From contig NZ_JAALJI010000002.1 in assembly GCF_011064595.1 (NCBI RefSeq), forward strand, positions 248,001 through 312,000: 64,000 nucleotides of DNA, read 5' to 3'. Shown here piece after piece: positions 1,390-21,389 of this stretch (within the stretch, counting starts at the first letter, position 1; every line of letters starts with the position of its first letter). The notes beneath the pieces were generated by a model, which was given only the letters and a program-made list of their open reading frames with translations, did not search any database and was not told the DNA's origin. Origin of the DNA: Paludisphaera soli (GTDB lineage Bacteria; Planctomycetota; Planctomycetia; Isosphaerales; Isosphaeraceae). Made by a program: the position numbers and the translations under genes.

Positions 1390-2976
1390 ATGGCGAATCT
1401 GTGGGTCCGTAAATCCATCGCCGCGCTGAAGGCCGAGGCGGCCGCCAGCGAAGAGCACGGCCTGAAACGCACCCTGACGGGCGTGAACCTGATCATGCTC
1501 GGGATCGGGGCCGTCATCGGCGCCGGCTTCTTCGGCCTGACCGGCGAGGCGTCGGCCCGGTACGCCGGCCCGGCGATCTCGCTCTCGTTCGTGCTGGGGG
1601 GGATCGTCTGCACCTTCGCCGGCCTCTGCTACGCCGAGATGGCCTCGACCGTCCCGGTCGCCGGCTCCGCCTACACCTACGCCTACGCCACCATGGGCGA
1701 GTTCATCGCCTGGCTGATCGGCTGGGACCTGATCCTCGAATACATGGTGGGCGCGACCACCGTGGCCATCAACTGGTCGGGATACGTCGCCAGCTTCCTC
1801 CACGACCGCGGCCTCGACCTGCCCCCGCGGTTCCTCGCCTCGCCGGGCACCAAGATGATCGAGGTCCCCGACGACGTCGCCGGACGCCTCCACCTCCGCC
1901 ACGGCTGGTCGATGCTCGACTCCGTGAAGGACCGCCTGGCCGAGGCCGGCGTCGACTTCGCGAGCTTCCCCCAGGTCGAGGCCCTGTTCAACGCCCCGGC
2001 CATGCTGATCGTCGCCCTGGTCACCGCCCTGCTCGTCGTCGGCGTCCAGGAGTCGGCCCGGGTCAACAACGTCATCGTCTTCATCAAGGTCTCGATCCTG
2101 GTCCTCCTGATCGTCCTGGGCCTCCCCATGGTCGACAGCAAGAACTGGGGCGGCTCCTACATCCAGCCCTCCGTCGGGCCCTGGTACAACTTCGAGTACG
2201 GCTGGAGCGGCGTGCTCCGGGCCGCCGGCCTCGTCTTCTTCGCCTACATCGGCTTCGACGCGGTCTCCACCACCGCCCAGGAGGCCAAGAACCCCCAGCG
2301 CGACATGCCCATCGGCATCATCGGCTCGCTGGTCATCTGCACGGCCCTCTACTTCCTCGGCTCGATCGTCCTCACCGGCGTGGTCAACTACAAGCAGCTC
2401 CACGTCCCCGACCCGGTCGCGGTCGCCACCGACGCCATGAAGATGCCCTGGCTCTCGTTCTACGTGAAGATCGGCGCGATCATGGGCCTCAGCTCCGTGA
2501 TCCTCGTCATGCTCATGAGCCAGCCCCGGATCTTTTACGCGATGTCCAAGGACGGCCTCCTGCCGGCCTTCGCCGCCAAGGTCCATCCGCGGTTCCACAC
2601 GCCCTACATCACCACGATCATCACCGGCCTGATCGTCATGACGGCCGCCGCGATCCTCCCGCTGAGCGTCGCCGGCGAGCTGACCTCGATCGGAACCCTC
2701 TTCGCCTTCGCCGTCGTCTCGGCCGGCACGCTCTACCTGCGGATCACCCAGCCCGACGTCGAGCGCCCCTTCCGCGCCCCCGCCATCTGGTTCACCGCCC
2801 CGATGGGCGTCCTGACCGCCGTGGCGCTCATGCTTCCCCTCCCCGTCGACACCTGGATCCGGCTCATCGTCTGGATGCTCCTGGGCCTGGTGATCTACTT
2901 CCTCTACGGCAAGAACCACAGCGTCCTGGGCAACCGCGCCCCCGAGGACTCCCTCGTCGGCGCCGGCGAAGCCTGA
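1390..2976 (+). CDS. APC-superfamily amino acid permease
   Basis: A 528-residue integral membrane protein with about 12 predicted helices. The first helix carries GIGAVIGAGFFGLTG (about residues 36-50), the glycine-rich substrate-binding turn of amino acid/polyamine/organocation permeases, and FFAYIGFDAVSTTAQEAKNPQRDMP is the conserved TM6 region, as in cationic amino acid transporters and YfnA-like proteins. A hydrophilic loop of about 65 residues (roughly 133-200, containing HLRHGWSMLD) is longer than usual. It probably exchanges or imports amino acids across the inner membrane; specificity cannot be assigned. An ATG preceded by a purine-rich GAGAGGAC sets the start. It is monocistronic and followed by a strong hairpin. 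Confidence 0.9.
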   Translation: MANLWVRKSIAALKAEAAASEEHGLKRTLTGVNLIMLGIGAVIGAGFFGLTGEASARYAGPAISLSFVLGGIVCTFAGLCYAEMASTVPVAGSAYTYAYATMGEFIAWLIGWDLILEYMVGATTVAINWSGYVASFLHDRGLDLPPRFLASPGTKMIEVPDDVAGRLHLRHGWSMLDSVKDRLAEAGVDFASFPQVEALFNAPAMLIVALVTALLVVGVQESARVNNVIVFIKVSILVLLIVLGLPMVDSKNWGGSYIQPSVGPWYNFEYGWSGVLRAAGLVFFAYIGFDAVSTTAQEAKNPQRDMPIGIIGSLVICTALYFLGSIVLTGVVNYKQLHVPDPVAVATDAMKMPWLSFYVKIGAIMGLSSVILVMLMSQPRIFYAMSKDGLLPAFAAKVHPRFHTPYITTIITGLIVMTAAAILPLSVAGELTSIGTLFAFAVVSAGTLYLRITQPDVERPFRAPAIWFTAPMGVLTAVALMLPLPVDTWIRLIVWMLLGLVIYFLYGKNHSVLGNRAPEDSLVGAGEA

Positions 2977-3018: not shown

Positions 3019-3033
3019 CGGCCCTTCCCCGCG

Positions 3034-3149
3034 ATCGGCTTCGTTCGCGCCCGCCGAGAAACGAAGCCAATCGACCGAAACCCCGGTCTAGCCTAGCTTT
3101 AAAACCGAAATCGACGCCCCGGGATTGGGTTCGTTCGGCGCACTTTTCG
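3034..3149. repeat. Intergenic repeat element, copy A
   Basis: The unit begins with ATCGGCTTCGTTCG (3034) and has a variant of the same 14-mer, ATTGGGTTCGTTCG, 90 bp later (3124). The first 14-mer pairs with an inverted copy at 3060-3073, forming a 14-position stem from 3032 to 3073 with one mismatch and a 14-nt loop. The middle of the unit is much less conserved relative to copy B than the two ends. Function unknown. Confidence 0.7.
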
Positions 3150-3301
3150 AGACTCCTCGGTCAACCCCGCCGCCTCGGAGCCGTCGCAGGGCGTCGATCC
3201 GGGCACCACGACTCGGCGGTATCGAGTGCGGAGCGTCCCCCTTTCGAGGATCGGCCTGTAAACGGCACCGTCGGTCCCCGCTCGGGCCCGCTCCGCGGGG
3301 A

Positions 3302-3417
3302 ATCGGCTTCGTTCGTCCCGCCCCGAAAACGAACCCATCGGACGCAAGCCCCATACTACAAGGCTTTTGCGACGAGAGTTCGGCCCGCGAAATTGGGTTC
3401 GTTCGACGCATTTCCCG
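3302..3417. repeat. Intergenic repeat element, copy B
   Basis: Same organisation as copy A: the identical 14-mer ATCGGCTTCGTTCG at 3302 and ATTGGGTTCGTTCG at 3392, again exactly 90 bp apart, with an inverted partner (AACGAACCCATCG, 3328-3340). The internal sequence differs widely from copy A, but the overall length is the same (116 bp). The two copies lie 268 bp apart, start to start. Confidence 0.7.
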
Positions 3418-3575: not shown

Positions 3576-5747
<2,172 letters not shown>

Positions 5748-20264: not shown

Positions 20265-21389
20265 GTGCGGCCCGCGCCCCCCTCCGCGTGCCGAGTCCCC
20301 CTCGTGAACCCCACCCCCCCACCGAGCCCGGCCGGCTGGCGCAAGCCGGCGATCCGCGCCTTGAAGGCGGCGGTGGCGGTCCTCGTGTTCTGGGGCGTCG
20401 GCCGGCACGTCGCCCGGACCTGGGACGAACTCTCGCGCGACGGCGCGACGCCGCGGATCGAGCCGTGGTGGCTGGCCCTCTCGGGGCTAGCCTACCTCAT
20501 CGGCCTCGTCCTCTGCGGGGCCTTCTATCGCGACGTCCTGACGGCGAGCCCGACGCCGATCGGCCTCTTCCCGGCCGTCCGGGCGTACCTGATCAGCCAC
20601 CTGGGGAAATACGTGCCGGGCAAGGCCGTCGTCGTGGTGATGCGGGCCGCGCTGTCGACGCCCTACGGGGCCCGCGCCTCCACCTCGGCGGTGGCGACGT
20701 TCTACGAGACGCTGGTGATGATGGCGTCGGGCGCCCTGATCGCGGCCCTGATCTTCGCGTCCGGCGGGGACTCGCCGGTGATCGCGCTCGACCGCGAGGT
20801 TCTGGGCTTCCGCGAGGTCCGCGCGTTCGTCCTCTTCGCCCTCATCGCCGGCGGCCTGTCGGCGGCCTTCCTGACGGTGGTCGCCCCTCCGGTGTTCCGG
20901 CGGCTCGCGGGCGTGTTCGCGAGGAAGGTCCCGGGGATGGGGGTCGACGCGCTGTCGGACTTCACCTGGGGCCTGATGGCGCGGGGGCTGGCGCTCACGG
21001 GGATCTCGTGGCTGTTCCTGGGCCTGAGCCAGGTGGCCGCCGCGAAGGGGCTGTCGGGGATGGGTTCGCCGGAGCTGGACCTGACGGTCATCCCGGTGGC
21101 CGTGGCGAGCGTGGCCCTGGCGACGGTGGCTGGGTTCGTGGTGGCCGTCGCGCCGGGCGGCCTGGGCGTGCGGGAGAGCGTCCTCATGTACGCCCTGGGG
21201 CCGGCATTCGGACCGGGGCGCGCCGTGGCCGCCGCCCTGATGCTGCGGCTGGTCTGGGTCGCCGTCGAGGCGCTGGCGGCCCTGGTCCTGGGGCCGCTGG
21301 GGCGGCCCGCGAAGCCGAACGAACCCGAATCCGAGGCCGTCGCCGCCGAGGTCTTGCAGGAGTCCGTGCCGATGTCGGAGGCGCCATGA
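20265..21389 (+). CDS. YbhN/AglD-like (LPG synthase TM-region) membrane protein
   Basis: A 374-residue integral membrane protein with about eight helices. The conserved YLISHLGKYVPGKAVVVVMRAAL (about 105-127) and the later APGGLGVRESVLMYALGP are hallmarks of the UPF0104/lysylphosphatidylglycerol-synthase transmembrane family (YbhN, AglD). Members lack the soluble synthase domain and are often linked to lipid or polyprenyl-glycan handling. GTG starts at 20265 and 20304 are both possible; neither has a clear Shine-Dalgarno sequence. The stop overlaps the following glycosyltransferase start (ATGA). Confidence 0.85.
   Translation: MRPAPPSACRVPLVNPTPPPSPAGWRKPAIRALKAAVAVLVFWGVGRHVARTWDELSRDGATPRIEPWWLALSGLAYLIGLVLCGAFYRDVLTASPTPIGLFPAVRAYLISHLGKYVPGKAVVVVMRAALSTPYGARASTSAVATFYETLVMMASGALIAALIFASGGDSPVIALDREVLGFREVRAFVLFALIAGGLSAAFLTVVAPPVFRRLAGVFARKVPGMGVDALSDFTWGLMARGLALTGISWLFLGLSQVAAAKGLSGMGSPELDLTVIPVAVASVALATVAGFVVAVAPGGLGVRESVLMYALGPAFGPGRAVAAALMLRLVWVAVEALAALVLGPLGRPAKPNEPESEAVAAEVLQESVPMSEAP

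Follow-up and report, generated by a model that had tools for sequence, protein, structure and literature searches.

The balance of the sequence evidence tips toward reading the 104-bp intergenic element of Paludisphaera soli as a cluster in which one double-stranded DNA site is present two or three times, with a protein of the ANR family (signature ANRxNAxKSTGP) as its partner. The core of the site is AACGAAsCCrAT, which in this genus becomes GCGC-CGAACGAAsCCrAT. The sites are most likely the cognate sites of a DNA-binding protein, a putative partnership similar to that of REP elements with RAYT but involving an unrelated protein. The ANR protein is the likeliest reader, since its N-terminal segment and the DNA word are both conserved and the word is carried in the tail of its own gene across phyla.

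Two copies of the element, A and B, are present in the window (the whole 64,000-nucleotide stretch of DNA that was analysed), where they lie between the convergent genes 1390–2976 (+) and 3576–5747 (−). As the original prediction had it, ATCGGCTTCGTTCG is located at 3034–3047 and 3302–3315, and its companion ATTGGGTTCGTTCG at 3124–3137 and 3392–3405, an offset of exactly 90 bp in both copies. With up to one mismatch allowed, ATYGGSTTCGTTCG has five matches in the window, four of them exact, compared with 0.23 expected. A one-mismatch motif at 21316–21329 on the minus strand falls within a predicted gene and is probably a chance occurrence. Along the minus strand, each copy carries, in order, a GCGC box and motif m1 (CGAACGAACCCAAT); a TTAA box (CAAA in copy B) comes about 25 bp later and a CTTGCGTC-type box about 20 bp after that, followed by an inverted motif m2 and, across a short gap, by motif m3 (CGAACGAAGCCGAT). 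In copy A, the GCGC box (AAAAGTGCGC; consensus GAAGCGCGC) is at 3138–3147, m1, an exact 14-mer match, at 3124–3137, the TTAA box (TTTTAAA) at 3098–3104, the next box (TTTCGGT; consensus TTGCGTC) at 3074–3080, and m3 at 3034–3047, 57 bp past the stop codon of the plus-strand gene ending at 2976; all of these lie on the minus strand, the boxes being assigned from the element consensus, and m2 reads AACGAAGCCAATCG on the plus strand at 3060–3073. In copy B, the minus-strand features are the GCGC box (GGAAATGCGT) at 3406–3415, m1 at 3392–3405, the CTTGCGTC box at 3341–3348, and m3 at 3302–3315, with both motifs exact and both boxes again assigned from the consensus, and m2 reads AACGAACCCATCG on the plus strand at 3328–3340. 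The inverted partner in copy A, predicted as a 13 of 14 bp stem, was recovered with 14-nt arms at 3032–3045 and 3060–3073 that are 93% complementary, and the centres of the two copies are divergent, as had been described.

The element is widely dispersed in its own genome (G000, 7.97 Mb). The 14-mer, which reads CGAACGAAsCCrAT on the minus strand, occurs there not twice but many times: CGAACGAANCCNAT has 233 exact matches and its reversed pattern has none, and CGAACGAASCCRAT with up to two mismatches has 574 compared with 45 for the reversed pattern. A blastn search with a 131-bp element finds at least 79 places with E ≤ 10; the scoring covered 40 of the 155 first-look candidates, so the true number may be higher. 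Many copies of the 14-mer pair into a unit that measures 104 bp from first to last 14-mer and is extended by the GCGC box and a few bases on the flanks. A third, inverted copy usually lies in between; types with a spacing of about 80 bp do not have the inverted copy. The paired 14-mers of the original prediction thus stand, but the natural unit is not the proposed 116 bp; it is 104 bp with three motif copies. Alignments of 51 and then 48 copies show that the motifs, the GCGC box, TTAA, and TTGCGTC are conserved and that the spacers are near-random. The suggestion of a dispersed element with selection on its ends is supported, the element being amplified in the lineage and intergenic. In the 48-element consensus, the end motifs m1 and m3 are direct repeats of a non-palindromic 14-mer, about 90 bp apart. 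The 51 copies were drawn from 63 elements by setting aside 12 with spacings of 80–82 or 93 bp, and their scoring covered 48 of the 51; the 48-row alignment also omits L044, L014, and L020 (the inverted copy is missing from two of them and odd in the third), an omission that, if anything, favours a stem. The 14-mer was the sole query for loci L001–L030 and L061–L088, and the conservation of m2 and the boxes in them is therefore not a product of the search; L031–L060 and L089–L100 came from the whole-element blastn search, which favours copies like those in the window.

Among the first 100 G000 sites listed, same-strand neighbours less than 130 bp apart are separated by 57–58 (2 pairs), 69–70 (5), 80–82 (8), 89–93 (24), and 99 bp (1), so that about half of these sites belong to near-90-bp pairs. 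These distances follow a phase of roughly one helical turn, with a best period of 10.4–11.7 in three species; in G421, a sister species, it is 11.6–11.7, longer than a B-DNA turn. This test is supportive only, as shared descent contributes to it and its higher values lie above 10.5.

The element resembles a MITE in being a short, dispersed, non-coding unit and differs from one in that its end motifs are direct rather than terminal inverted repeats and have been kept while the spacers diverged. A separate MITE-like unit is present in the same genome, with inverted ends matching TTGAGTGAGGAGTG (up to one mismatch) about 181–182 bp apart at G000:C154:60923/61105, C154:73359/73541, C116:73452/73633, and C13:39484/39665; some of its ends adjoin m1 of the 104-bp element. 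Other words over-represented in intergenic DNA of L061–L100 and the window, for example CCACGGGTTC/GAACCCGTGG, GGTTCTCCGA, and CCCCCTCATC with CCTTCCCCCC, suggest further dispersed repeat families.

The possibility of an RNA element, raised in the original prediction, was rejected. An Rfam scan of the window gives no match at gathering scores, and over 48 copies neither pairing nor covariation rises above the level of shuffles: the m2–m3 stem has 86.6% standard pairs compared with 86.1% in shuffled alignments (covariation 0.106 and 0.104), and the m1–m2 stem has 85.4% compared with 85.8% (0.066 and 0.069). A single G/C position varies freely, and in the two alternative stems it is left unpaired in 21 and 27 of the 48 copies. 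As the stems are not maintained, the element is a DNA site rather than an RNA, and the stem pairing follows from the presence of one site in three copies.

The genomic placement of the element was examined with gene calls from a codon-usage caller for which the window and the fetched regions were the training set. All 63 elements with spacings of 79–83 or 88–93 bp are intergenic, a count limited to those spacings, with the 57–71 bp pairs and the single sites outside it. Of the 33 elements whose m3 side faces the end of a gene, 22 have the stop codon within 60 bp, compared with 1 of 40 on the m1 side. This asymmetry, together with the stem that can be drawn between m2 and m3, speaks for a role in the 3′ untranslated region as a transcription terminator or an mRNA-stabilising hairpin behind stop codons. 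Such a role is nevertheless quite improbable: the stem is no better kept than in shuffles, the types with a spacing of about 80 bp do not have the inverted copy at all, and no stop codon faces m3 in the 22 of 62 elements situated between genes both running with the element or in the 7 of 62 between divergent genes (62 of the 63 elements enter these gene-context counts, one having no flanking gene).

On a larger scale, the listed clusters of G000 (47 clusters, 35 intervals) are spaced more evenly than by chance, with a mean of 55 kb and a coefficient of variation (CV) of 0.49 compared with 0.93 for random placement; none of 20,000 random-placement simulations was as low (null 0.89–0.93, with the lengths of two contigs estimated). 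The clusters of G421 (mean 84 kb, CV 0.66, P 2e-4) and of a third species, G418 (mean 124 kb, CV 0.72, P 0.006), behave similarly, all of these tests resting on the first 100 sites listed per genome. When clusters less than 10 kb apart are merged, in the null as well, the evenness is weaker, with P 0.0006 (G000), 0.012 (G421), and 0.032 (G418).

In a phylum sample of 392 genomes, all except the own genome have at most five exact matches, and in a family sample of 45 genomes the counts are 233 (own), 143, 119, 69, 50, 22, 13, 11, and then fewer. Within the genus, G000 has 233 exact sites, G421 143, G418 119, G420 13, G419 4, and G422 1, so the element is neither a matter of two copies nor absent from relatives. 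Its attribution to this lineage holds for the 104-bp element, which is genus-level, and is too narrow for the core site, which in the tails of ANR genes spans, by record title, Planctomycetota, Acidobacteria, Proteobacteria, Verrucomicrobia, and others. At the window locus, G421 keeps the element beside a gene that we take to be permease-like, G419 has an apparent decayed remnant, and G418, G420, and G422 are without the motif, with other changes present. Nine of 19 G421 clusters are found at places orthologous to sampled own elements (30 fetched loci), and in most of these nine cases one or more motifs line up amid poorly aligning spacers; both sides were chosen for exact motifs, which biases motif retention upward and the sharing of places less so. 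About 3 of 17 G418 clusters are at such places (matches to ANR genes not counted). Vertical retention is therefore shown for G421 and not for G418.

These comparisons bear on a possible though rather doubtful alternative, according to which the ANR gene and its tail form an autonomous mobile element from whose 3′ end the non-autonomous 104-bp elements derive, having spread through the action of the ANR protein or together with it. Target immunity would in that case yield the even spacing, and the range of 1 to 233 sites within the genus and the few G418 clusters sharing places with the own genome are in its favour. The shared G421 places argue against it, and no empty site or target duplication was established, the window locus in five species yielding no clean empty site.

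Outside the genus, the sites also occur in tandem arrays with periods of, for example, 24, 32, 42, 54, and 65 bp, many with a GCG box ahead of the motif. At L176:7941–8074 (G402:C1:3705940–3706073), six exact motifs follow one another in 24-bp steps with CGCGGCGGCC between them and near-copies after them. In G411 and G407 (L191, L192, L193, and L179), CTTCAY direct repeats with a step of about 11 bp come immediately after the motif and are reminiscent of Pho-box-like sites. The NEPN/TNPI-like peptides that the original prediction associated with other planctomycetes do recur there as NEPN-, ERTQ-, and TNPI-type readings; they are the DNA site in different frames, partly inside ANR genes.

Three G418 sites lie in or beside the C-terminal codons of the multicopy ANR protein family, which is found in 33 of the 45 family genomes. 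G000 has one ANR match, G000:C68:24243–25382 (40 of 44 first-look candidates scored), the tail of which contains two exact sites (25285 and 25355) read in different frames as ..APNEANLDP.. and ..ARERTQSAP... The ANR tails of several other genera likewise contain NEPN, ERTQ, or TNPI, in varying frame. Under one rule for the genus, the core at up to one mismatch, the tail core is present in G000 (two exact), in G421 (one exact and one mismatched), and in six of eight readable G418 copies, the two copies without it being interrupted. The G420 gene at a single locus is without the core, and three of five other G420 copies have one mismatched core. The tails of G419 and G422 have no core under this rule, G419 retaining a looser remnant. 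The tail core is thus present where sites are many (233, 143, and 119) and absent in G419 and G422 (4 and 1). In the G420 tail at L241, a palindromic repeat (CTTCCCCC...GGGGGAAG) precedes the motif, and a centre of the AAGTTACGTCGA type, as in the intergenic element, is also present.

Copy number and copy boundaries of the ANR gene lend some support to the mobile-element alternative. G418 has 16 ANR matches and G420 has 11, corresponding to at least ten and at least eight separate places among the matches listed, the rest being pieces. When L226 is compared with other G418 copies (86–90% identity), the alignable similarity stops at the first motif in five of seven cases (L228 and L229, with no ORF by pattern, stand outside these comparisons), and the own gene, that of G421, and two G418 copies each have two motifs 70–79 bp apart in the tail. 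In the two G418 copies, however, the second motif follows 79 bp beyond the first, so the stop at the first motif is no proof of a transposon end and may just mark a fast-diverging spacer. Two G418 copies, L233 and L235, are interrupted by similar insertions of about 1.45 kb, in each case with an ORF presumably of the IS110 transposase type. The only ANR matches of G421 and G419 are on small contigs, C2 (97,874 bp) and C3 (180,582 bp), respectively, which are possibly plasmids.

The number of ANR matches does not predict the number of sites, and it was rejected as a predictor: over the 45 family genomes, the Spearman coefficient is 0.14 (P 0.37). ANR genes are present in all eight genomes with at least 10 sites and in 25 of the 37 others (P 0.09), G392 combines 18 ANR matches with zero exact sites, and G419 and G422 keep the gene with few sites (4 and 1). 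This lack of correlation speaks for a site that belongs to a different host regulator, the copies in ANR tails being ordinary members of its regulon. That explanation is improbable given that, in one phylum after another, the core recurs in ANR tails on either strand, at 13 times its density in the DNA around them.

This recurrence was established by a related-locus search with the family alignment, which kept 80 of 183 relatives assigned by record title to planctomycetes, Acidobacteria, Proteobacteria, Verrucomicrobia, Chloroflexi, and others. In the 79 loci scanned (L319, with no ORF found, was dropped), the core AACGAASCCNAT at up to one mismatch occurs 52 times in 52.8 kb of tails and 35 times in 466 kb elsewhere, compared with 3.96 expected in the tails (Poisson 3e-39, the loci not being independent); of the control patterns, the reversed one occurs three times in the tails and twenty shuffled ones 0 to 4 times. 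A tail core is present in 36 of the 79 loci and absent from 43, and 22 of the 36 are outside Planctomycetota (record title, hand count). The tail cores are found in several frames and on both strands, those of Acidobacteria mostly on the other strand and often read as IGFV. Across 16 genomes, all of them chosen as ANR-bearing, AACGAASCCRAT occurs 406 times compared with 13 for its reversed pattern and is the more frequent of the two in all 16, with extremes of 212 compared with 0 in one planctomycete and 47 compared with 1 in an acidobacterium, and 4 to 16 in most others. By eye, the extended consensus is TTTGCGAAACGAAGCCAATTT.

The N-terminal segment of the ANR protein, ANRxNAxKSTGPxTxxGKxxSxxNAxxHG, is near-invariant over 19, 25, and 30 aligned members; the 25- and 30-member sets (alignments A2 and A3, members hand-picked) were fetched by a search that used part of this segment as its pattern. 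The ANR proteins have no convincing sequence match in Pfam, NCBIfam, PHROGs, PADLOC, or the PDB. Weak single-member matches to Borrelia_P83, YopE_N, Mor, Opi1, phrog_532, and ZorG, as well as eight NCBIfam entries in A3 and a SEC-C match in one A3 member, were set aside as chance or fused domains. An AlphaFold2 model from 25 sequences is all-helical, with no strand (pLDDT 84, pTM 0.69; short form pLDDT 77), and its confidence is low in parts of the first 45 residues. Structure searches return generic coiled coils and bundles, with a best Foldseek E of 0.076 for the long form and 1.5 for the short form and a best VIA Z of 8.0; SMC/MukB coiled coils appear at Z 6–8, inside the uninformative range of VIA, and no structural relative is claimed. 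DDE, HUH, and tyrosine and serine recombinases have alpha/beta catalytic folds, and the predicted all-helical fold would set the ANR protein apart from them, a further point against the mobile-element alternative.

For the preferred pairing of ANR protein and site, the protein would recognise the site through its near-invariant N-terminal helical segment, and its long helices may dimerise and hold neighbouring sites together. The in-phase spacings of 57, 70, 81, 90, and 99 bp would be compatible with proteins that all bind the same face of the helix.

In REP/REPIN systems, the gene of the partner RAYT (TnpA-REP) carries the repeat beside it. Similar to these systems, the present one comprises short, high-copy, extragenic repeats and a proposed partner gene with the repeat alongside. 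The differences include that the proposed partner is unrelated, with an all-helical model, and that the repeat is a cluster of direct-repeat sites rather than a tagged palindrome. That the sites are themselves REP elements mobilised by a RAYT (Y1) transposase is very improbable, even though they are high-copy, dispersed, and extragenic: Y1_Tnp matches number 2, 5, 1, 1, 0, and 5 in G000, G418, G419, G420, G421, and G422, where sites number 233, 119, 4, 13, 143, and 1, and the 48-element consensus contains no palindrome tagged GTAG or CGTC, the 20–40 bp form described for REP in the excerpted text of PMC3733652. No description of the site or of ANR proteins was found in the open-licence literature searched, including excerpts of PMC3733652 and PMC5217627. 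The occurrence of the site within the end of the ANR gene suggests that the two constitute an undescribed protein-and-site system.

The element can also be compared with systems in which no transposase takes part. MatP/matS, SlmA/SBS, Noc/NBS, and ParB/parS are chromosome site systems, and the present sites resemble theirs in being dispersed and double-stranded, with one presumed binder and placement on the scale of the chromosome. They differ in being gathered into 104-bp multi-site clusters, in varying strongly in number within a genus, and in having as candidate binder an ANR protein without a convincing family match; what was measured of a possible chromosome-organising role is the even spacing and the conservation of places. 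DNA uptake sequences are frequent inside coding genes too, unlike the 63 of 63 counted elements that are intergenic here, the ANR tail being the coding exception.

As to function, DNA bridging or chromosome organisation, suggested by the even spacing, the phasing, and the long helices, is placed ahead of the others at a little short of even; mobilisation by or for the ANR protein, suggested by the multicopy genes and the large differences in copy number, is a lesser but real possibility, and regulation or another function takes up the remainder. A range of 1 to 233 sites within one genus is odd for an essential chromosome function. More speculatively, and with rather little confidence, the whole might be an undescribed class of multi-phylum two-part element, comprising a small helical, predicted DNA-binding ANR protein and a near-invariant TTTGCGAAACGAAGCCAATTT site that is carried in the 3′ end of its gene and has been seeded through the chromosome, forming in some planctomycetes a quasi-regular lattice of about 55 kb that would organise it.

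The finding links a multi-phylum protein family that has no name to one particular DNA word, which makes the function of the family directly testable. It also explains recurrent odd peptides in predicted proteins (NEPN, ERTQ, TNPI, and IGFV) as readings of one DNA site. Within a single genus, species with many sites and species with few provide a natural experiment, and the planctomycetes may offer a case of evenly spaced chromosome sites.
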